Part shown: piece by piece, positions 1,590 to 33,597 of the stretch | How the letters are laid out: every line of letters starts with the position of its first letter | Numbering within the stretch: the first letter of the stretch is position 1 | NCBI RefSeq assembly: GCF_008710035.1 | Contig: NZ_VYKI01000002.1 | Span: 239,579 to 303,578 of the forward strand | Direction of reading: 5' to 3' | Origin: Stenotrophomonas cyclobalanopsidis | GTDB taxonomy: Bacteria > Pseudomonadota > Gammaproteobacteria > Xanthomonadales > Xanthomonadaceae | DNA: 64,000 nucleotides | Made by a program: the position numbers and the translations under genes | Notes under the pieces: model-generated | Database searches by the model: none | What the model was told of the DNA's origin: nothing | What the model saw: only the letters and a program-made list of their open reading frames with translations

Positions 1590-2687
1590 TCATACAGCTT
1601 CCTCGAGAATGATATCGGCGATGCGCTCGGCGGCATCGACCTTGGCCAGCGCGCGCGCGGCTTGCGCCATCTGCATGCGGCGGGCGGGATTTTCGGACAG
1701 TTCGCGCAGCAGTGCGGCAATGCCGTCGGCCAGCGTTCCATCCTGCTTCAGCAACACGGCCGCATCGCGCTCGACCAGGTACTCCGCATTGCGGGTCTGG
1801 TGATCGTCGACGGCGGCGGGGAACGGCACCAGCACGCTGCCCACGCCCACCGCGCACAGCTCGGCCAGGGTGGACGCGCCGGCACGGCACACCACCAGGT
1901 CGGCCCATGCAAAGGCCTCGGCCATGTGGGCGATGAACGGAGTGATTTCAGCCTGCACGCCGGCCTTGGCATACGCCTCGACCGCTTCGGCATGCAGCTT
2001 CTCGCCGCTCTGGTGGCGCACCTGCACCGGCACGGTGCCGGCCAGCGCGGCGATGGCCTGCGGCACACCGGTGTTGAGCGCGCGTGCACCCTGGCTGCCG
2101 CCCACCACCAGCAGCCGCAGCGGGCCCTGGCGATCGGCGAAGCGCTGCTCCGGCGGCGCGATCGCGGCGATTTCCGCGCGCACCGGGTTGCCGACGAACT
2201 CCTCGCCCTTGGCGAACGTGCCCGGGAAACCGGTCAGCAGGCGGCGCGCGTAGCGCGACAGGATGCGGTTGGTCATGCCCGGCGCACGGTTCTGCTCGTG
2301 CACCAGCAGCGGCAGGCCGTGCAGGCGGGTGGCGATGCCACCGGGGCCGGAGGCGAAGCCACCGAAGGCGATCACGGCGCGCGGCTGGCGCTTGCGGATG
2401 ATCATGCCGGCCGCGCGCAGCGCGCGCATCAGCCGCCACGGTGCACCCAGCAGGGCCAGCTTGCCCTTGCTGCGCAGGCCGGTGATGGCCAGCGTGTCGA
2501 CCGGGATGTCGTGCTGCGGCACCAAGCGGGTTTCCATCGCGCCGTCGGCACCCATCCAGGTGACCGGCACGCCACGCTGGCGCAGCACGCGGGCCACGGC
2601 CAGGCCGGGGAAGATGTGGCCACCGGTACCGCCGGCCAGAATCATCACCGGGCGGGCGCTGGCAGTCGTCGTGGAGGCAGTGCTCAT
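1590..2687 (-). CDS. murG: UDP-GlcNAc: undecaprenyl-PP-MurNAc-pentapeptide transferase MurG
   Basis: Membrane-associated glycosyltransferase that converts lipid I to lipid II on the cytoplasmic face. The 365 residues show the two family signatures: GGTGGH (19-24) in the N-terminal domain for the lipid acceptor, and GGSQGA plus [10 protein letters not shown] in the C-terminal domain for UDP-GlcNAc. About ten extra residues, rich in Ser/Thr/Ala, precede the first motif. Its ATG overlaps the ftsW stop by 4 bp (ATGA). Confidence 0.97.
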
Positions 2688-3994
2688 GACAGCCTCCCGA
2701 AGGTCGGTTCGATGCGCGACTGCAGGCGGCTGGTGCCACGTGCAGCGGCAGCCACCGGTTCGGCTGCCTTCGGCACGCTGGTGGCAGCGGCCGGTGCAGC
2801 CGGTTCAGCCACGGGCGCACCTGCGGCCTCTTCGCCACCACCGATGCGCACGGCCTGGCGGCGCTCGGCGCGCTTCAGTTCATAGGTCACGCGCAGCAGC
2901 AGGCCCATCGCCACGCAGGTCATCAGCACCGACGAACCGCCCGACGAGATCAGCGGCAGGGTCAGGCCCTTGGTCGGCAGGATGCCCAGGTTCACGCCGA
3001 TCGAGACGAAGGTCTGCATGCTGATCCACAGGCCGATGCCGAAGGCGATGTAGCCGGAGAAGTGGCGCTTCATTTCCACGCAGCGCATGCCCAGCCAGAA
3101 GGTGCGGCCGACCAGCAGCGCGTACAGGGCGACGATGGTGCAGGTGCCCAGGAAGCCGAATTCCTCGGCGGTGACCGAGAAGATGAAGTCCGTGTGCGCT
3201 TCGGGCAGGTAATACAGCTTCTGCACCGAGTTGCCCAGGCCGACGCCGGTCCACTCGCCACGGCCCACGGCCATCAGTGCGTTGGACAGCTGGTAGCCAT
3301 CGCCCTGCTGGTCGGCCCACGGGTCAAGGAAGGAGGTGATGCGGCGCATGCGGTACGGCTCGATGATCGCCAGCGCGCTCATGCCGACCAGGCCGATGAT
3401 CACCGGCATCGACATGCGCGGCATGTTCACCCCGCCCAGCACCAGCATGCCGGCGGTGATCGCCAGAAGCAGGGTGGACGAACCGAAGTCGGGCTGCAGC
3501 AGCAGCAGCACGACCAGCGCACCGGCCACGCCCAGCGGCTTCAGCATCGCCGGCCAGGTCGCATTGACCTCGTCGCGGAAGCGCACCAGGTAGCTGGACA
3601 GCCAGACGATGTAGAGCACCTTCACCGCTTCGACCGTCTGGAACTTGGAGATGCCCAGGTTGATCCAGCGGCGCGCGCCGTTGACCGTGCTGCCCAGGCC
3701 CGGCGTGAATACCGCCAGCAGCAGCACGAAGCAGCCCAGCAGCAGGATCTGATTGTACTGCTCGATCGACTTCAGCTCGGTGCGGGCGGCCACGACCGCC
3801 AGCACGATGCCGACCGCCAGGAAGATCAGGTGGCGGTTGAGGTAGTAGAACGGGCTGCTCATCAGCGCGATCGAGCTGGACGCCACCATCACCACGCCAA
3901 TGCCCGTGAGCGCGATGATCGCGCCCAGCAGCCACTTGTCGTAGCTGCCTTCGATGGCTTCGAGGCGTGTTGCCTGGCGGGACAGGTCATTCAT
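2684..3994 (-). CDS. ftsW: Lipid II polymerase FtsW (SEDS family)
   Basis: Ten-helix SEDS glycosyltransferase that polymerises septal peptidoglycan together with FtsI. The 436-residue product has the conserved loops of the family ([34 protein letters not shown]). The start is the ATG at 3994, 2 bp from the mraY stop; the longer open frame upstream is antisense to mraY and does not look like protein. After the last helix there is an unusual Ala/Pro-rich cytoplasmic tail of about 60 residues. There is no murD between mraY and ftsW, unlike E. coli. Confidence 0.96.
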
Positions 3995-12674: not shown

Positions 12675-12715
12675 GCGTTCGCCGCGTGGATGGCATCGCC
12701 GATTCGAGAAATGGA

Positions 12716-13069
12716 GGCGGAGCCGGCCGATAAGCCGGGTTCTGTCGTGGACAGTCATTCCTCTAGGCGTTACGTCACCGCAACGCTCAAGCAACCTACC
12801 CGGATCCAACGCGGGCCGCGCCAATGGATCCCTATTTGGTCTTGCTCCAGGTGGGGTTTGCCGTGCCGGTCTGTTGCCAGACTCGCGGTGCGCTCTTACC
12901 GCACCATTTCACCCTTACCGGCCTTCCGAAGAAGACGTAGGCGGTATCTTTCTGTTGCACTTTCCGTCGGCTTGCGCCGCCCAGGCGTTACCTGGCACCT
13001 TGCCCTATGGAGCCCGGACTTTCCTCGGCACCCCCGAAGGGATGACGCGACTGTCTGGCCGGCTCCGCC
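12716..13069 (-). ncRNA. rnpB: RNase P RNA
   Basis: The minus strand carries the conserved landmarks of bacterial class A RNase P RNA, the catalytic RNA that matures tRNA 5' ends: GAGGAAAGTCCGGGCTCC, ATAGGGCAAGGTGCCAGGTA, and near the 3' end ACAGAACCCGGCTTAT. The ends are set by the closing helix P1, a perfect 13-bp pairing between GGCGGAGCCGGCC at 13057-13069 (5' side) and its complement at 12716-12728. The reading frames that cross the locus are spurious. Confidence 0.95.
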
Positions 13070-18338: not shown

Positions 18339-18455
18339 CTGTCGCGATCTGCTCGCTCGTGCAACCGCGGCCGCGCCACTGCAAGCATTCGTAATTCTTC
18401 TACCTTTCCAACTTTTCTCATTGGGCTGCGGGCGCTAACCGCCCATCCTCGACAG

Positions 18456-18609
18456 GCCACCGACAACGGGTGGCACGGGCTTGCAATCCCGTGGGTTGGT
18501 TTGTTGTTTACGCTTGTCTGCCGGCGTCGTGCACCCCCTGTGCGCGGCGTCGGCGGGCAATCCGTCCGCGGCTCCATGGCGGGCGGTGCGTGGGGGCCTC
18601 GCGCCCGCC
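18456..18609 (+). ncRNA. C4-type antisense RNA, copy 1
   Basis: The plus strand folds into a chain of hairpins resembling the C4 antisense RNAs of phages P1/P7 and of proteobacterial chromosomes: GCCACC/GGTGGC (18456-18474); CACGGG/CCCGTG with loop CTTGCAAT (18475-18494); a long CTGCCGGCGTCG... hairpin with wobble pairs; and GGCGGGC/GCCCGCC (18578-18609) with loop GGTGCGTGG. Two of the hairpins are complementary to the site at 18630-18657. A second copy is at 25873. A conserved AT-rich stretch at about 18388-18423 is the likely promoter. Ends are approximate. Confidence 0.7.
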
Positions 18610-18629
18610 GGCAACTCTTAACCGACCCC

Positions 18630-18657
18630 CGGTATTGCAACCACGCACCGTCCGCCA
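18630..18657 (+). promoter_or_regulatory. Target site of the C4-type RNA, copy 1
   Basis: CGGTATTGCAACC (18630-18642) can pair with hairpin 1 (18478-18491; 12 of 13 positions with one bulge). CCACGCACCGTCCGCCA (18641-18657) can pair over 17 positions, one of them G-U, with TGGCGGGCGGTGCGTGG (18577-18593). The site precedes the ribosome site (AAGGA, 18697-18701) of the following gene. Confidence 0.65.
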
Positions 18658-18708
18658 CCCCGCTGTCAAGCGCGGGTGGCGTCCCGCCTCATGCACAAGG
18701 ACGCCGAG

Positions 18709-19131
18709 ATGATCTCTTCCAAGTACCCCTTCCTGTTCGCCACCCTGGGCGACGCGGCCGCGCGCCTGCCCGACGACCTGGCACGCACGCTGGAAAGCAC
18801 GCTGGCCGCCACCGATGCCGCCAACGCCCCCGAACGCACACCCGAAAGCGTCACGGTGCTGAACTGCCTGCGGCGCATCCGCCAGGTGGAAGCGGCCAAC
18901 GGCCAGCCGTGGCCGAACGATGGGCATACGCCCGGCCAAAGCATGGCGCTGGCCCGCATCGACCGCGCCAATGCCGGACAGACCTTCCTGCTGGAACTGC
19001 TGCACGCCATCGAACGCACGTGCGTGGATGGCGATGAAGACGAGAAGCTAGGTGACGGCGCACGCGAGGGCATTCTGTTTGCCTGCCGCGCGTTGGCCGA
19101 GTACATGGATCTGCAGCTGCACGCGGCGTGA
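18709..19131 (+). CDS. Uncharacterised 140-residue protein of the C4 cassette, copy 1
   Basis: Function unknown. The product is soluble, has no signal peptide or membrane helix, and is predicted mostly helical, with FLFATLGDAAARLPDDLART near the start, then TPESVTVLNCLRRIR and a DRANAGQTFLLELLHAIERT segment. The start is chosen by alignment with copy 2 (26128-26550), which begins at the same place, and by AAGGA seven bases upstream; a nearer in-frame ATG would add residues not shared by copy 2. By eye about three quarters of residues agree between the copies. Each follows a C4-type RNA and target, so translation is probably controlled by that RNA. Confidence 0.75.
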   Translation: MISSKYPFLFATLGDAAARLPDDLARTLESTLAATDAANAPERTPESVTVLNCLRRIRQVEAANGQPWPNDGHTPGQSMALARIDRANAGQTFLLELLHAIERTCVDGDEDEKLGDGAREGILFACRALAEYMDLQLHAA

Positions 19132-19353: not shown

Positions 19354-21792
19354 TTACCAGCGGTAAGACATGCCCAGGTTTCCCGTGGCTTCACGGTACC
19401 CATGGTCGCCGCGCATCACCCCCAATCCACCCCAGGCACTCAGGCCGGACGGGAAATCCACCCGCACCCCGCTGCTGAGCTCGTAGCGGTTGAGCGGTGC
19501 ACCCGCCTTCAACACATCGGCATCGAAGGCAATGCCATCGCTGGCACCATCTCGGTACCAGTTCGCTGCCAGGTAGGGGCTCACTGCCGCCCCGGATGCC
19601 GGGCGTGCCTCGCCCTGCAGGCGCAGGCCCAGACGGCCAGACAATCCGCTGTTGCCCAGGCTGCGCACTACGGTGCCGTTGCTTTCCTGGTGGACGCCGG
19701 TGTTCGAATCGGTGTACACCAGCTGCAGTTCTGGTTGCAGGTGCAATGCGGTACTGCCGATCCTGCCGAGGCCGAAGCGGTATCCCGCCTCCAGCGAGGA
19801 CTGCCACAGGTCCGAATCGTAGCGCTCCGGGGCCAGGCCTTCGCCCTGTACGGTGTTGCGGAAGCGGCCGCGCTGGGCGCTGGCGTCCACATACGCCGCA
19901 TCGTTGCTCCAGTTGCCATACACCCCCACCGCACCGCCTTCCAGCGTGCCGGTGGCGCGGTAGCCGGTCACCGACGAACGCGATTGCGCGTGCGACTGCG
20001 CAGCAGTGGCCATCAGGCCCACGCGGCCACGGCCGTCATCCCACACCCCCACATCCGCACCGAGCTGCAGGCGAGAACGCTGCACGCGCATGCCCAGCTC
20101 TTCATCCACTGCAGACATGCGGCTGTTGCCAGCGTCCACCCGCGCCCAGCCACGCACGCCATCTGCCGCTGTGCTCCCACCCTGGCGGTCACGCCACTGG
20201 TGACGCAACACCTGGTTGAGTGCGAACTGGTTGGCCAGGTAGGCACCTGCTTCGGGACGCAGCACCGGCGGTGGCGGCTCGATCGGGTCGATGGGATCAA
20301 TAGGGTCGATCGGATCGATTGGCGGGTCCACCGGGCCACCACATTCGGGCAAGGTGGGGTCGGTGTCGCAGGGATCAGGCGCGGGCGGCAGCTGCGAGCG
20401 CAGGTACCAGCCGCCGTTGCCGGCATCCTTGAACAGGAAGTACTCGTACTGCCCACCCACGGCACGGCCGCTCAGGTTGAACTGCGCGTTGGATGCCCCG
20501 CCGATGCGGATCAGCTCGATGCCTTTGTCGGTCTGCGCCCCGGCGCCGCCGGCGTTGAACACGCGCACGTTGGCCTGGCCATTGGCATCGCCGGTGATGA
20601 TCAGTTTGTCGGTCGCCGAGGTGTCATCGCCCAATTGGGTATTGAACGCCAGCGTGCCGCCGTTGCCCACGAACGCATCCACGGTGAGCGTGTTGAACGT
20701 GGTGCCGCTGCCCAGCCCCACCACGCCGGTGGCATCCAGCTGCAAACGGCCCACGTTGCTGTCGCCGGTGAGCAGCCAGGTAGCGTCGGTGCCGATGGTG
20801 GCACTGGTGACATCGAAGAAACGGCCATCGAGCTGGGCCTTGTTGCGCAGCACAACGTCGAGGCGGCCATTTAGGACCGTGGTGGGGTCGAAGGTGATGT
20901 TGCCCGCCAGCCGGACATCATCCGCCGCAAAGTTGACATCGGTGCGGGCCGTGCTGGCACCATCTCGTGCCTGGACCAGCAGCAGATTGCCATCACCCCC
21001 CATCAGCTGCGCACCGTTGCTGACGCTGATACGGTAATCCGCGTCGTCATCCAGCGGCTGGACCTCAATGGCGGCGCCGCGTCGCGAAGCTACCCGGGAG
21101 TTGTCGATTCCCAGACGAATGGCGTCTCCCACGGGCTGAAATGATGACAACACAACGCCTATATTGGCCGCATCGATGGTTGATCGGTTGAGGATGTCCA
21201 TCTGCCCGTAGTTCAGGCGCACTCCCAGCCCGGAGTTGAGGGGGTTGCTCGCATTGGGCGCATCCTCGACTACGATCGAGGTACCATCAACAACGACGGT
21301 TGCATCATAGATGCTGGCACCCACGGCGTCGTACGTGACATCAATTCCGACCGCCAGTGTTCTCGGATTCATTTCATCTGCAGTGATCGAGATGGCACTG
21401 TTGACAATCGAGGCGGCCGCGTTGTCACCGCGCAGGGAGACGCCCCCGCCTGAGAAGCGGGTGTTGACGGCCTGAAGTACAGCCCCTTTTCTCAACTCCA
21501 CCGCAGCCTGCCCGCTATTACCGGTCCGCGTCACCTGGGCCCCGTTCAACGTCAGCGTCGAGCCGCTACTGGCTTCCAGCTGATGGGTCCTGCCGCCGTT
21601 GACCGTCAGGCGGGAACCGTTGACCAGGGACCACATTTCCTCGGGATCGCCTTCCACCACCTCCGCGCTCTGGCCATCCAGGTCGCGCGCCATCAGCGCG
21701 GGGGTAGAAAGTGATGCCATGACCAGCAACAGGCCCTTGGCCAGGGGGCGCAGCTCAGGCAGGTCAAAAAGGGGGAAAGCACGGCGATTCAT
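19354..21792 (-). CDS. Autotransporter (type Va), 812 residues
   Basis: Surface protein that exports itself. The N-terminus is an extended signal sequence (about 1-35). Residues about 40-480 are a low-complexity beta-helix passenger rich in Gly/Asn/Thr/Ser (GSRLTVNGG, GSTLTLNGA repeats). A linker DPCDTDPTLPECGG plus four PIDP-like repeats follows. The last about 265 residues form the beta-barrel, ending in MSYRW, a C-terminal aromatic expected by the BAM machinery. No protease motif was seen, so it is probably an adhesin of the pertactin/AIDA type. It is related to the next gene, mainly in the linker and barrel. Confidence 0.88.
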   Translation of the reverse strand: MNRRAFPLFDLPELRPLAKGLLLVMASLSTPALMARDLDGQSAEVVEGDPEEMWSLVNGSRLTVNGGRTHQLEASSGSTLTLNGAQVTRTGNSGQAAVELRKGAVLQAVNTRFSGGGVSLRGDNAAASIVNSAISITADEMNPRTLAVGIDVTYDAVGASIYDATVVVDGTSIVVEDAPNASNPLNSGLGVRLNYGQMDILNRSTIDAANIGVVLSSFQPVGDAIRLGIDNSRVASRRGAAIEVQPLDDDADYRISVSNGAQLMGGDGNLLLVQARDGASTARTDVNFAADDVRLAGNITFDPTTVLNGRLDVVLRNKAQLDGRFFDVTSATIGTDATWLLTGDSNVGRLQLDATGVVGLGSGTTFNTLTVDAFVGNGGTLAFNTQLGDDTSATDKLIITGDANGQANVRVFNAGGAGAQTDKGIELIRIGGASNAQFNLSGRAVGGQYEYFLFKDAGNGGWYLRSQLPPAPDPCDTDPTLPECGGPVDPPIDPIDPIDPIDPIEPPPPVLRPEAGAYLANQFALNQVLRHQWRDRQGGSTAADGVRGWARVDAGNSRMSAVDEELGMRVQRSRLQLGADVGVWDDGRGRVGLMATAAQSHAQSRSSVTGYRATGTLEGGAVGVYGNWSNDAAYVDASAQRGRFRNTVQGEGLAPERYDSDLWQSSLEAGYRFGLGRIGSTALHLQPELQLVYTDSNTGVHQESNGTVVRSLGNSGLSGRLGLRLQGEARPASGAAVSPYLAANWYRDGASDGIAFDADVLKAGAPLNRYELSSGVRVDFPSGLSAWGGLGVMRGDHGYREATGNLGMSYRW

Positions 21793-22109: not shown

Positions 22110-25100
22110 CTACCAGTCGTAACGCAATCCCAGCTGCGCACTGGTCTGGTAGTAACCGGATGCCCGCTGCAACGACAATCCGCCCCACGCACCCAGGCCG
22201 TTGCCGAACGTCACCGAGGCACCGCCACTGAACTCTCCGCGGTTGCGCGGAATGCGTGCATCCACCACGTCATCATCCATGCGTACCCGACTGTCGTTAC
22301 GGGCGTGCAGCCAGTGCGCGGCGATGTACGGCTGCACCTGCGCCATGCCATCACCCCAACGGGTAACCCCCGACAAACGCACACCCGCACGACCATGCAA
22401 CCCATCCGCATGCTGCGTGGCCACCACCGTGCCGTTCGCTTCGGTGTGGCGCAGATCATTCCAGCGACTGTACCCCACCTTCAACTGCGGCTCTACATGG
22501 ATGCCAGCGTTGGGCGCACCGCTCACACGGAACGCATACCCGGTTTCAACCGCACCTTGCCACGCCTTGCTGTCGTACCGCTCCGGCATCAGGCCCACGC
22601 CTTCCACGCGGTTGCGGAACCGTGCACGCTGCACCGAGCCATCCACGTAGAAACCCGCATACGGGTCTTCGTTGGCCGCACGCCAGGTGCCATACACCCC
22701 CAACGCTTCGCCCTTCACTTTGCCGCGTGCGTAATAGCCGGTCAGGGTGTTGGCCGCCGTGCTGCTGGCATTGCCGCTGGACAGCATCACGCCGAACCCG
22801 CTGCCATTGGCCACCTGCATCACATCCACCCCCACGCTCAGCGCCTGGCTGCTGCCACGCACGTCCAACTGGCGGCTGACCGCGTCGAACCCGCTGCGTG
22901 CACCCCGCACGCGCGCCCAGCCGCGGCCTCCCCCCAGGCCCGCCTGGCGGTCGTGGTAGCCCAGGCCGAACATGTTCTGCGCGGCAGTCAGGTTGGACAG
23001 GTAGGCACCGCCTTCCGGGCGCAGCACCGGGTCGGGAAGCGGGTCTACCGGTGGGGTCACCGGGGGATCGACCGGAGGGTCAACAGGCGGGTCAAGCGCA
23101 CCGCCACACTGCGGCAGCGTCGGGTCGGTGTCACAGGGGTCCGGCGGCAGCAACTGCGAGCGCAGGTACCAGTTCCCTTCGCCACCGGCCACGCCGCCCT
23201 TGTGCAGGAAGTATTCGTACTGCCCGCCTACCGCACGCCCGGCCAGTTCAAAGCGTGCATTGGACGTCCCCTCCACGCCGATCAGGGAAATCCCATCCAG
23301 CGTCGGGGCGCCACGCCCGCCCAGGTTGTTGACCTGCACGCGCGCGTTGCCGTGGGTATCCCCCAGTACGTGCAGGTGATCGGCAGGCGAGCGGTCATCG
23401 CCCAGCGCCGCGTTGAACAGGAACATCGCCCCGTCGGCGTGCAGGTCGCCGGTCACGGTGAGAGTGTTGAAGCCACCACTGCCATCGGACAATGCCACCC
23501 CGCTGCCGCGCAGTTCCAGCGCACCCACGCTGGCATCGCCGGTCAGCGTCCACTGGCTGCCGCCTTCCAGCGACAGGCTGTGCAGCAGTGAAGAGCGCCC
23601 GACCCATAACGCGCGGTTGGACAGCGCAAGATGCACCTGCGACTGCGGCACCAGCCCGGCATCTTCATCGGCCTGGGTGGTGACGATGTCGCCATGCAGT
23701 TCCGCCCCGCCTTCCAGCGCAATGTCGAATCGCCCGGCCACGGCCGCATCCAGCGCGATGCCGGTGCCGTTACCACCGGCCACCACGGCACCATTACCCA
23801 AGCGCAGCCCAGCATCACGCGTGCTGCGTACCCACACGCCGCCATGCTGCGCACTGACCAGCGAGCCGCCATCCAGTTGCAGGCTGCCGCGTTCGTTGAT
23901 AACCGCCGCCCAGGCGCCTTCGCCTTCGGCACGGACATGGGTATCGTGCAGCGCCATCTCACCGCCACCGTGCGCGTACAGGCCATGCGCTCGGTCACCC
24001 GTGGTGCGCACCACGCTGTCCTTCAGCCGCACGTTGCCGCCCTGGTAGGCAACCACCCCCATGGCCCCCGCGCCCTCGGTCAGCACCTCCGTCCCGATCA
24101 CATCCATGCGTGGTCCCGGGCCAGCCATCGCATTGGCATAGAGGGCGTGCCCGTTGTCGCCACGGGTGTGCACGCGGCTGCCACGCAGCGTGGCCTGGGC
24201 ATCGGTGCCGAACAGGGCAACGCCGTAGCTGTCGGATCCGCCTGCGCTGATCTGCGAAGCGTCCACCTGCAGCCGGGAGTTGAACCAGACCTCAATGCCC
24301 GAACCCTTGGCAGTAGCTATGGTGGAGTTGTCCACCTGCGCATCCCCATCGCGCATGTTGAGATTGATACCGGTGGAGGCGGTTTCCAGATGGGAATTGC
24401 GCATGACCAGCACCGAGCCCTGACCCAGGCTGATGCCCCAGTTCCCGCGCATGTCCACGTCGTCCAGCAACAGGCGGCCGCCACCGCCTGTGGCAAAGCT
24501 GACCACACTACTGCTGTCGCCGTCGGCATGGATGCGGCCACCACGGAATTCGACTTCCCCGCCCACCAACAGCCCCGCACCGGAGCGCGCATGGCTGAGG
24601 TCGATATGGACATCTTCCAGCGTGACCTTGCTGCCCGCCCCCGTCGTGATGCCACGGGAACCAGCCCCCAGGCCATTGATCTGCACGGAACGCAACGTGA
24701 CATCACTGCCGGCATTGGCGACCGATACCGCAGCACCGCTCCCCATCTGCTCAATCCGCATGCGCTCGGCCCGCAGACTGCCCGCCTGCACATCAATGCC
24801 ATTGGCACTGGTGCCTTCCACGCGGATGACGCTGTCCAGCAGACCCACCGTACCGCCACGCACCGACACGCCGTGGGCCAGGGCACCACGGGTAACGATG
24901 GTGCTGTCGTTGATGGCTGACGTTGCGTTGTCCACCGCGATGCCAAACGCGGCCTGGCCGTTGGTTTCGATGCGCGTATCCACCAGTGCAACGTGGGCAC
25001 CGCTCAACGCCGCCACCCCGCTGGCCGCGTGGCCAGTGGTCACGATGCTGCTGCTTTCCAGTGCAATGCGGCTGCCCACGCCTTCGGCCCGCGCCGCCGC

Positions 25101-25349
25101 GGCGCCCTGGCCTTCGGTGCGCAGGTTGACCGCGCCAGTCGGAACGATGCTGCCACCATTGCGGGCAAAGAAGGCATAGCCGTCTGTGGTGCCGGGGTTC
25201 TCCGGCGCGGTGGTGTGGTAGTCGCCTGCGGCGGGGGTCTGGACGTCGCCGTCGGCAATGACCTGCTGTGCGTTGGCGGGAGGGAGGGAGAACAGCGCAG
25301 CACTGAGCGCGAGCGCCAGGGCATGGTAGGACTGGGGAGGGTGATGCAT
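22110..25349 (-). CDS. Autotransporter (type Va), 1079 residues
   Basis: Surface protein with a cleavable signal (MHHPPQSYHALALALSAALF, cleavage after NAQ about residue 28), a long right-handed beta-helix passenger (about 40-680) built of repeats such as GSRIALESSSIVTTGHAA, a Cys-pair linker DPCDTDPTLPQCGG with PPVDPPV repeats (about 735-775), and a C-terminal barrel ending LGLRYDW. No catalytic motif was recognised; an adhesin or biofilm role is inferred from the family. A decayed copy of its promoter, signal region and barrel lies at 26.8-29.0 kb. Confidence 0.9.
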   Translation of the reverse strand: MHHPPQSYHALALALSAALFSLPPANAQQVIADGDVQTPAAGDYHTTAPENPGTTDGYAFFARNGGSIVPTGAVNLRTEGQGAAAARAEGVGSRIALESSSIVTTGHAASGVAALSGAHVALVDTRIETNGQAAFGIAVDNATSAINDSTIVTRGALAHGVSVRGGTVGLLDSVIRVEGTSANGIDVQAGSLRAERMRIEQMGSGAAVSVANAGSDVTLRSVQINGLGAGSRGITTGAGSKVTLEDVHIDLSHARSGAGLLVGGEVEFRGGRIHADGDSSSVVSFATGGGGRLLLDDVDMRGNWGISLGQGSVLVMRNSHLETASTGINLNMRDGDAQVDNSTIATAKGSGIEVWFNSRLQVDASQISAGGSDSYGVALFGTDAQATLRGSRVHTRGDNGHALYANAMAGPGPRMDVIGTEVLTEGAGAMGVVAYQGGNVRLKDSVVRTTGDRAHGLYAHGGGEMALHDTHVRAEGEGAWAAVINERGSLQLDGGSLVSAQHGGVWVRSTRDAGLRLGNGAVVAGGNGTGIALDAAVAGRFDIALEGGAELHGDIVTTQADEDAGLVPQSQVHLALSNRALWVGRSSLLHSLSLEGGSQWTLTGDASVGALELRGSGVALSDGSGGFNTLTVTGDLHADGAMFLFNAALGDDRSPADHLHVLGDTHGNARVQVNNLGGRGAPTLDGISLIGVEGTSNARFELAGRAVGGQYEYFLHKGGVAGGEGNWYLRSQLLPPDPCDTDPTLPQCGGALDPPVDPPVDPPVTPPVDPLPDPVLRPEGGAYLSNLTAAQNMFGLGYHDRQAGLGGGRGWARVRGARSGFDAVSRQLDVRGSSQALSVGVDVMQVANGSGFGVMLSSGNASSTAANTLTGYYARGKVKGEALGVYGTWRAANEDPYAGFYVDGSVQRARFRNRVEGVGLMPERYDSKAWQGAVETGYAFRVSGAPNAGIHVEPQLKVGYSRWNDLRHTEANGTVVATQHADGLHGRAGVRLSGVTRWGDGMAQVQPYIAAHWLHARNDSRVRMDDDVVDARIPRNRGEFSGGASVTFGNGLGAWGGLSLQRASGYYQTSAQLGLRYDW

Positions 25350-25750: not shown

Positions 25751-25872
25751 AGGGTTTGACGCAATCGGCACGCATTGACGCTCTTTCCCGCGGCGCTGCA
25801 ACTCTTCGTATTTTTTCTACTTTCCAACTTTTCTCATTGGCAGCGCGGGCGCTGCATGCCAATCATGTACGC

Positions 25873-26027
25873 GCCACCGACAACGGGTGGCTAGGGCTTC
25901 CAATCCCGATAGGTAATTCTGTTGTTTACGCTTGTCTGCCGGCGTCGCGCATCCGTGTGCGCGGCGTCGGCAGACATTCTGTCCGCGCAGTTTTGGCGGG
26001 CGGTGCGTGGGGGCACTCGTGCCCGCC
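25873..26027 (+). ncRNA. C4-type antisense RNA, copy 2
   Basis: Same plan as copy 1: GCCACC/GGTGGC hairpin, a hairpin with loop CTTCCAAT (GGG/CCC stem, 25894-25907), the CTGCCGGCGTCG hairpin, and GGCGGGC/GCCCGCC (25995-26027) with loop GGTGCGTGG. The loop CTTCCAAT differs from CTTGCAAT of copy 1, and the target changes to match. A shared AT-rich run (TTTCCAACTTTTCTCATTGG, ending at 25840) precedes it and is the probable promoter. Confidence 0.7.
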
Positions 26028-26048
26028 GGCGTTTCGCAGAGTTACCTC

Positions 26049-26076
26049 CGGTATTGGAACCACGCACCGTCCGCCA
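26049..26076 (+). promoter_or_regulatory. Target site of the C4-type RNA, copy 2
   Basis: CGGTATTGGAACC (26049-26061) pairs with hairpin 1 (25895-25908). CCACGCACCGTCCGCCA (26060-26076) pairs with TGGCGGGCGGTGCGTGG (25994-26010). Target and loop carry compensating changes relative to copy 1 (ATTGCAA to ATTGGAA, TTGCAAT to TTCCAAT). Confidence 0.65.
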
Positions 26077-26127
26077 CCCTCGCGTTCTGCGGGGGTGGCC
26101 CTTTGCACCCCGCACAAGGACGCCGCC

Positions 26128-26550
26128 ATGAGCGCATCGAAGTATCCCTTCCTGTTCGCCACCCTGGGCGAGGCTGCCACGCGCCTGCCCGAAGATCTGG
26201 CACGCACGCTGGAAAGCACGCTTGCTGCCACCCAGGCCGCGAACACTGTGCAGCGCACACCCGATGGAATTACCGTACTGAACTGCCTGCAGCGCATCCG
26301 CCAGGGTGAAGCCGCCGATGGCCAGCCGTGGCCGGACAAAGGCCACACGCCGGGCCAACGCATGGCGCTGGCCAGCATCGACCGTGCCAACGCCGGGCAA
26401 ACCTTCCTGCTGGAACTGCTGCACGCCATCGAACGCACCCGCGTGGATGGTGATGAAGACGCGCAGGCAGGCGATGCGGCACGCGAAGGCCTGCTGTTTG
26501 CGTGCCGTGCGTTGGCCGCCTACGTCGGTGAGCAGGTGCAGGCGGCATAG
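26128..26550 (+). CDS. Uncharacterised 140-residue protein of the C4 cassette, copy 2
   Basis: Paralogue of the 18709-19131 gene with the same length and plan (MSASKYPFLFATLGEAATRL, TPDGITVLNCLQRIR, DRANAGQTFLLELLHAIERT). It has an AAGGA ribosome site six bases before the ATG. The upstream element is also conserved, so gene and RNA moved as one cassette. No known domain was recognised; C4 RNAs in phages P1/P7 control antirepressor and Icd genes, but this protein does not resemble those. Confidence 0.75.
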   Translation: MSASKYPFLFATLGEAATRLPEDLARTLESTLAATQAANTVQRTPDGITVLNCLQRIRQGEAADGQPWPDKGHTPGQRMALASIDRANAGQTFLLELLHAIERTRVDGDEDAQAGDAAREGLLFACRALAAYVGEQVQAA

Positions 26551-33449: not shown

Positions 33450-33597
33450 GCACCGTCTTCTTTCATCCGGACTATGACCGTCGGCTCCGGCATTGGACCG
33501 GATCTGCTGACCCCCGGCCATGGACCGGGGCGCTCGCGGGCTCGTGCTTGCGCACCTACCGCCGGTGGGGAATCGCACCCCGCCCTGAAGACGTTTG
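33450..33597 (-). promoter_or_regulatory. FMN riboswitch (RFN element)
   Basis: The minus strand has the conserved RFN blocks in order: TCAGGGCGGGGTG, GATTCCCCACCGGCGGTA, AGCCCGCGAGCG, GGTCAGCAGATCCGGT, CCGACGGT and AGTCCGGATGAAAGAAGACG. Helix P1 is formed by GAAGACG (3' side, 33451-33459 region) with CGTCTTC (33587-33593 region). FMN binding is expected to shut off the rib operon. Downstream, GGGCC TTTGC GGCCC and a GGCGTTTTT run before ribE could form the off-state. Confidence 0.95.

Follow-up and report, generated by a model that had tools for sequence, protein, structure and literature searches.

A chromosomal family of C4 RNAs in Stenotrophomonas with predicted, mostly copy-specific targets in their own leaders

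Two similar elements lie within the 64,000 nt of Stenotrophomonas cyclobalanopsidis DNA analysed here (the window), and in each of them the loops of two hairpins had been proposed to act as a C4-type antisense RNA on a complementary site further downstream. The reputation of C4 rests mainly on its part in phage immunity. We examined whether such RNAs are encoded here and, if so, on which sequence they act. The Rfam C4 model (RF01695) matches the window twice on the + strand, with 62.1 bits for copy 1 and 66.5 bits for copy 2 against a gathering threshold of 45, so that the family was correctly recognised in both copies. The roles were inverted: since the C4 RNA is the downstream part of the element, the hairpins taken for the antisense RNA are the target, and the supposed target is the antisense strand.

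Organisation of the two modules

Using site names taken from the order of the phage P1 record (a1, b1, c4, a2, b2, icd), each module consists of hairpin H1, hairpin H2 with a1 in its loop, b1, hairpin H3, the C4 RNA with b' in the P3 loop and a' between stems P3 and P1, and an ORF, all on the + strand. In copy 1, H1 (18457-18473) is followed by H2 (18476-18491), whose loop a1 (18481-18487) is the target of a', by the b1 tag (18494-18501), which is the target of b', and by H3 (18514-18560), which stands where the U-tract terminator of a canonical locus would be. The C4 RNA itself (18572-18662) comprises P1 (18578-18593 with 18641-18656), P2 (18593-18606), P3 (18608-18632), b' (18620-18627) and a' (18634-18640); behind it come a GGGTGGC segment (18674-18680) complementary to the 3' end of stem P1, an RBS-like AAGGAC (18697-18702) and a 140-codon ORF of a small helical protein family (18709-19131). 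Copy 2 repeats this arrangement with H1 at 25874-25890, H2 at 25893-25908 (loop a1 25898-25904), the b1 tag at 25911-25921, H3 at 25932-25976 and the C4 RNA at 25989-26081 (P1 25995-26010 with 26060-26075; P2 26010-26024; P3 26026-26051; b' 26037-26047; a' 26053-26059), followed by GGGTGGC at 26093-26099, again complementary to the 3' end of P1, AAGGAC at 26116-26121 and a 140-codon ORF of the same family at 26128-26550. The P1/P2/P3 fold is the minimum free energy fold of the copy 1 C4 (z -4.96), and a GG at the start of stem P1 is a candidate site for the RNase P processing by which C4 RNAs are trimmed to about 77 nt. Just 3' of the C4, the GGTGGC-type segment complements the 3' end of P1 in 98.9% of cells over 88 aligned rows and could make a hairpin competing with the C4 fold; by eye it is present in canonical loci too.

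A promoter-like stretch precedes each copy (18404-18449 and 25820-25866, both putative). In copy 1 it contains the 20-mer CTTTCCAACTTTTCTCATTG, also found 5' of copy 2, followed by TTGGGC and CATCCT spaced 17 nt; since a sigma-70 scan returned no promoter at 9 of 12 copies, the stretch can only be called a presumptive promoter.

The complementary stretches quoted for a1 and a' are present in both copies, as TTGCAAT (18481-18487) with ATTGCAA (18634-18640) and as TTCCAAT (25898-25904) with ATTGGAA (26053-26059), although the site placed about 20 nt downstream actually begins about 150 nt 3' of the hairpin loop. A longer and variable pairing between b1 and b' had been overlooked: in copy 1 GGTTGGTT (18494-18501) pairs with AACCGACC (18620-18627) over 8 pairs, one of them G-U, and in copy 2 AGGTAATTCTG (25911-25921) pairs with CAGAGTTACCT (26037-26047) over 11 pairs, again with one G-U. 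The single compensated base pair between two copies, which had been read as the mark of selection, is little proof alone, while the covariation seen over wider homologues (see below) goes far beyond chance. A lack of C4 match and a lack of covariation among more homologues had been named as outcomes against the original prediction; the Rfam search and the alignments of many homologues gave neither.

Several stems of the module covary among 88 aligned leaders, a set that includes the canonical loci L039, L073 and L076 and from which L037 was left out. The H1 stem has 11 double changes (shuffle maximum 3), and in H3 double changes occur at 10 of 13 core pairs, 89 in all against a shuffle maximum of 33. 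P1 and P2 of the C4 also covary beyond shuffles over the 88 rows, whereas in the same rows the H2 stem shows no covariation beyond shuffles.

Pairing of C4 RNAs with their leaders and with downstream sites

The genome to which the window belongs (4.2 Mb in 53 contigs) has 20 C4 matches above the cut-off, while 14 control genomes have none. This multiplicity had escaped the original prediction, as had the gene for a protein with which the unit closes, and the location between autotransporters is not a general one, with the 20 copies spread over 16 contigs. A family ORF begins 34-51 nt 3' of the C4 in 18 of the 20 copies, the exceptions being L019, without family ORF, and L020, with a different short ORF. 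The leader motif, allowing at most 2 mismatches, occurs 14 times in this genome and always at a C4 locus, hence no orphan leader of the Stenotrophomonas type (class ii, see below) is seen there. Another five family matches, at four places in this genome, are unaccompanied by a C4 match above the cut-off. L120-L123 (G000:C4:95339-95686, C53:51825-52208, C1:87703-87966 and C15:51903-52079) are relatives of the family, or fragments, that likewise have no C4 match above it, and a simple scan for the P1 motif upstream of these four saw no C4 start.

Among the 20 copies, upstream duplexes between leader and C4 are much more stable in cognate than in non-cognate combinations (-42.6 versus -30.4 kcal/mol; 0 of 100,000 permutations as good), whereas downstream duplexes stay at background (-25.8 cognate, -25.6 non-cognate). 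With whole leaders and raw energies, 13 of the 20 are reciprocal best partners. When the target segment only was used in the 12 genomes with at least 3 usable copies, 65 of 68 leaders preferred their own C4, 61 of them reciprocally, and 0 of 20,000 permutations were as good; this test and the folding of 86 leaders described below leave out the 14 of 103 copies without a leader anchor (L006, L017-L021, L026, L034-L036, L038, L044, L054 and L107) as well as the canonical L039, L073 and L076. In five genomes sampled more fully (20, 26, 16, 16 and 9 copies, of which G038 with 16 of 18 matches, G057 with 16 of 19 and G036 with 9 of 16 were partly fetched), whole leaders preferred their own C4 in 59 of 87 cases by raw energy and in 74 of 87 after row and column centring. 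For each of these genomes 0 of 20,000 permutations were as good, and the C4 segments are distinct inside each genome.

The tags also change together with their partners between genomes. In an orthologous group of 17 loci, whose proteins have a median identity of 0.91 (minimum 0.53) and whose tags give 14 distinct rows, pairing holds in 98 of the 112 tag cells, compared with a shuffle mean of 73.5 and maximum of 94, and 27 cells carry double changes, compared with 9.4 in shuffles (0 of 5,000 shuffles as high for either value). L001, L037 and L094 were not part of this count, and because a single pairing register was used throughout, pairs are undercounted in L042, L049 and L071, whose register is shifted by one. 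The pairing of leader and C4 is thus strongly supported as a selected and mostly copy-specific one, as far as sequence comparison can tell. One could suppose that the C4 RNAs mainly regulate other mRNAs in trans, with a1/b1 in the leader as a decoy that limits free C4, in line with the new bacterial targets proposed for C4-like RNAs of Acinetobacter baumannii (PMC5320573). We find this unlikely: address and leader covary copy by copy, and the leader is therefore at least one selected partner of the C4.

The addresses diverge most where copies share a cell. Copy pairs with proteins at least 75% identical number 20 within genomes and 271 between genomes; none of the 20 intra-genome pairs shares its C4 pairing segment, compared with 32 of the 271. 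The b' identity is 0.60 within versus 0.73 between genomes, with a Mann-Whitney p of 3.3e-5 that serves as a guide only because copy pairs are not independent, on a background that is similar in both sets (proteins 0.88 identical within genomes and 0.89 between; remainder of the RNA 0.91 within and 0.92 between, p 0.59). The simplest reading is that selection acts against cross-talk between co-resident copies.

In order to compare these modules with C4 loci of the known type, we set 95 Stenotrophomonas copies of class ii, meaning not of phage P1-type layout and assigned by eye, against 26 canonical loci (18 from other genera and 8 of P1 type within the genus), after removal of six duplicate loci. 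Canonical loci have the order b1, U-tract (25 of 26), C4 and a2/b2 at the ribosome-binding site, a layout also shown by the phage P1 record. Their cognate pairing is clear upstream (median z -2.48, 20 of 26 below -2) and weaker downstream (median z -1.62, 11 of 26 below -2). Among the 77 distinct C4 segments of class ii, the upstream pairing is equally evident (median z -2.60, 56 of 77 below -2), while the downstream a2/b2 pairing is absent (median z 0.10, 3 of 77 below -2, 0 reciprocal best). This bears on the established action of C4, which canonical loci display, namely repression as in phage P1, where pairing with a2/b2 at the ribosome-binding site blocks translation of the ORF that follows; with no cognate downstream pairing in class ii, and with the window's genome in agreement, such a mode is very improbable here.

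Predicted control within the leader

Class ii loci also differ from canonical ones between b1 and C4, where a T run was found in 2 of 95 copies, both times inside the tag. In the canonical loci (L135-L152, the 8 P1-type copies of the genus and the P1 record, L166:3221-3490) a terminator-like U-tract lies between b1 and C4 in 25 of 26, and by eye b1 abuts or overlaps a competing hairpin. With canonical b1 beside a competing hairpin and U-tract, C4 binding could therefore promote termination of its own transcript, that of phage P1 included. In class ii, where the U-tract after b1 and the b2 at the ribosome-binding site are both absent, the terminator and RBS routes would both be closed.

These features must be weighed against control of the kind found in phage P4, in which C4 acting in trans on a1/b1 would stop RNA polymerase in the leader, Rho-dependently or with the aid of H3, and so silence the small gene. 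The P4 CI RNA is described as a leader-binding termination factor (PMC4825925), and by that account it resembles the present modules in being a processed antisense RNA that pairs with its own leader 5' of itself, the target (seqA) preceding the antisense RNA on one transcript; the U-tract between b1 and C4 of canonical loci fits such a scheme as well. The likeness is one of layout by description; P4 also has a downstream site (seqC) and acts by termination, whereas class ii lacks the U-tract (the T runs of the two exceptions lying within the tag) and pairing energies revealed no second, seqC-like downstream target in class ii or in the window's genome. P4-type termination is accordingly possible, if somewhat doubtful.

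We favour a different reading, to which we assign a probability of roughly 0.45: each element would be a self-addressed C4 antisense module, the C4 acting on its own leader and thereby autoregulating its gene. The general self-targeting character of the module is likely. One transcript, probably starting near H1, would carry the target, H3, the C4 RNA and then the gene for the small helical protein, and the C4 would act on the leader of its own transcripts instead of on the ribosome-binding site. As long as the leader is uncut, its a1/b1 would pair in cis with a'/b' and prevent the C4 domain from folding, while a previously produced C4 that binds a1/b1 in trans would let the new C4 domain fold. 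The folded new C4 would then be excised, by RNase P as in phage P1, and join the pool, with loss of the intact mRNA. Each gene would in this way be autoregulated through the C4 of its own module, and the roughly 20 paralogues would interfere little with one another.

Folding calculations predict that leader pairing and C4 folding are mutually exclusive. For 86 class ii leaders, the mean modelled probability of stem P1 rises from 0.06 when the leader is intact to 0.96 when the target segment is blocked, against 0.08 when a neighbouring stretch is blocked, in a thermodynamic model without pseudoknots or kinetics and with 30 nt of 3' sequence in the main run. Since blocking the target raises the modelled P1, a mature C4 bound in trans could set a nascent C4 free for folding and processing. 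With only the a1 loop blocked the probability is 0.64, and with only the b1 tag blocked it is 0.69 (85 copies, possibly including the canonical L039, L073 and L076), and the C4 without leader reaches 0.97. Canonical loci switch less (0.44 to 0.73, control 0.58; 26 loci); in this comparison and in the folding without leader, the class ii group contains L039, L073 and L076. The contrast is also smaller when 70 nt of 3' sequence are included, with means of 0.17 intact, 0.90 target blocked and 0.18 control; under this setting the C4 of copy 1 folds in any case (0.99), and P1 of copy 2 is released by the control block as well (0.98).

Occlusion of the ribosome-binding site was rejected as the switch, its mean accessibility barely moving over four states (0.39, 0.32, 0.35 and 0.35; 87 copies, among them possibly L039, L073 and L076). 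Inspection by eye of a few copies revealed no consistent frame for a leader peptide over a1/b1.

A bolder form of self-targeting is rather unlikely. The copies might amount to a chromosomal bank of some 20 RNA switches insulated from one another, each C4 recognising its own leader tag only, in which trans binding allows the following C4 domain to fold and mature and silencing becomes self-reinforcing and gene-specific. Each paralogous small protein might then be held on or off independently, possibly heritably, and the loss of the RBS target might have freed b/b' from the Shine-Dalgarno constraint, so that addresses diversified after each duplication.

The repeated unit, its protein and its relatives

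Dispersed copies share homology that begins at H1 or at the promoter-like stretch, in some copies further upstream, and ends at the ORF stop, for which reason the repeated unit looks like a transcription unit; the idea of a mobile unit was considered and set aside. Copy 1 is preceded by a gene for an FAD-linked oxidase, and two minus-strand autotransporter-like ORFs with autochaperone/pertactin domains (19357-21792 and 22113-25349) lie between the two copies. Among the matches listed, G054, G038 and G060 have a module immediately behind the FAD-linked oxidase and some other genomes have one no more than a few kilobases away, and the oxidase flank is retained in genomes that lack C4, for example G002 and G012.

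Could the copies be decaying remnants of phage immunity regions, devoid of present function? C4 is a phage device, and some loci are damaged: L019 has no family ORF, L026 no intact ORF, and L037 (G032) keeps its C4 and family ORF with a leader that no longer shows H1, H2 or a1/b1. Against this, stems and tags covary, at least 90 of the 95 class ii copies fetched first carry a family ORF of at least 110 residues, and dispersed copies are homologous within the unit only. Moreover, no record in the phage collection resembles the copy 1 unit, and the phage and plasmid collections encode no relative of the copy 2 protein. Decay is thus improbable, and the Stenotrophomonas set is strongly supported as a real feature, a domesticated, address-diversified C4 family.

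C4 matches occur in 39 of 61 Stenotrophomonas genomes, that of the window included, and 33 of these have at least 5, with 7-26 copies each. A class-wide draw found C4 in 21 of 321 genomes with a top count of 6 outside Stenotrophomonas; these counts are lower bounds because the stricter filters of that search recover just 13 of the 20 copies in the window's genome. A 1.5 Mb genome of another genus (G434) has 6 matches in all, four of them within 1.4 kb on contig C9 (about 1700-3092). The protein family follows the RNA closely: it is matched in 35 of the 61 Stenotrophomonas genomes, and the two counts correlate with a Spearman coefficient of 0.94, both occurring in 35 genomes, C4 alone in 4 (one copy each) and the protein alone in none. 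A family-wide draw found it in 4 of 119 genomes and 2 of 54 genera, and the five named relatives of the copy 2 protein among genome contigs are all from Stenotrophomonas. G003 and G028 have 20 and 19 C4 matches with 11 and 7 weaker protein matches, and their C4 RNAs may be paired with more divergent proteins.

The protein itself has a conserved core around DGQPW and EGL in an alignment of 24 members, and its AlphaFold model is largely helical (mean pLDDT 85.7, pTM 0.63). The icd/ant antirepressor genes were not found 3' of the C4, the downstream ORF being another small protein. Pfam, NCBIfam and PHROGs gave no trusted family match for it; weak matches to Herpes_gE, TimA, phrog_26, PDC-S02 and RES were treated as chance. 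Foldseek gave no trusted fold relative (best E 2.0 in the PDB and 0.72 in BFVD), and the best VIA-align Z was 7.6 over helical hairpins. The two long C-terminal helices of model m0a3d7d049dd3 (residues 75-139) superpose on Rop variants, with Z 5.3 and 5.1 and rmsd 1.5 and 1.6 over 56 and 55 residues. Rop acts on kissing RNAs and helps their kissing; we claim no likeness because such Z values are also reached by unrelated helical bundles.

Among known systems, the C4 of phages P1 and P7 (RF01695; AF234172) shares with these modules the C4 fold, an upstream a1/b1 on the same transcript, the positions of a' and b' and a downstream gene, and differs in that here there is no a2/b2 at the RBS, no U-tract after b1 and no icd/ant, b/b' is hypervariable and 20 copies lie on one chromosome. 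The upstream a1/b1 layout is itself already known, both from Rfam and from the P1 record, in which putative a1/b1 sites are annotated upstream of c4. What is new, at least in the sequences compared, are the departures from canonical C4, namely the lack of a downstream RBS target, the lack of a U-tract after b1 and the hypervariable, covarying b/b'. The c4-a1b1 element (RF03163), listed by Weinberg et al. 2010 (PMC2864571), likewise lies just upstream of C4 and is complementary to it; copy 1 scores 18.8 bits against its threshold of 46.7, and copy 2 gives no match with E up to 1. A further leader RNA before C4 is isrK (RF01394), described as adjoining C4 in Burkholderia cenocepacia and Xylella and as forming one transcription unit with it in B. 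cenocepacia (PMC4603805). IsrK ends at an intrinsic terminator, whereas class ii has H3 without U-tract, and the isrK model has no match within the window. When 20 canonical loci were scanned, RF03163 matched 5 and RF01394 matched 3.

The nearest precedent is that of the C4-like RNAs of Acinetobacter. Group 1 of A. baumannii AB5075 has 21 such sRNAs, with processing at GGW and a Region 1 stem-loop whose loop is CACAUU or CUACAUU (PMC5320573), and, compared by description only, it resembles the present set as many chromosomal C4 copies differing in the specificity loop; in the accessible parts of that paper it differs in that no cognate upstream tag or protein family is described. Titles and abstracts, with partial coverage of the literature, yielded no paper on C4 RNAs of Stenotrophomonas. 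Here C4 makes up a large chromosomal family with many co-resident and largely orthogonal antisense/target pairs. If the favoured self-addressed reading is true, these provide naturally occurring specificity pairs in which loop-loop recognition can be studied, an example of a regulator that gave up translational repression for control through the leader only, and a way into a protein family that has no name yet. Finally, Rfam also places an RNase P RNA (12715-13066) and an FMN riboswitch (33451-33596) on the minus strand of the window.
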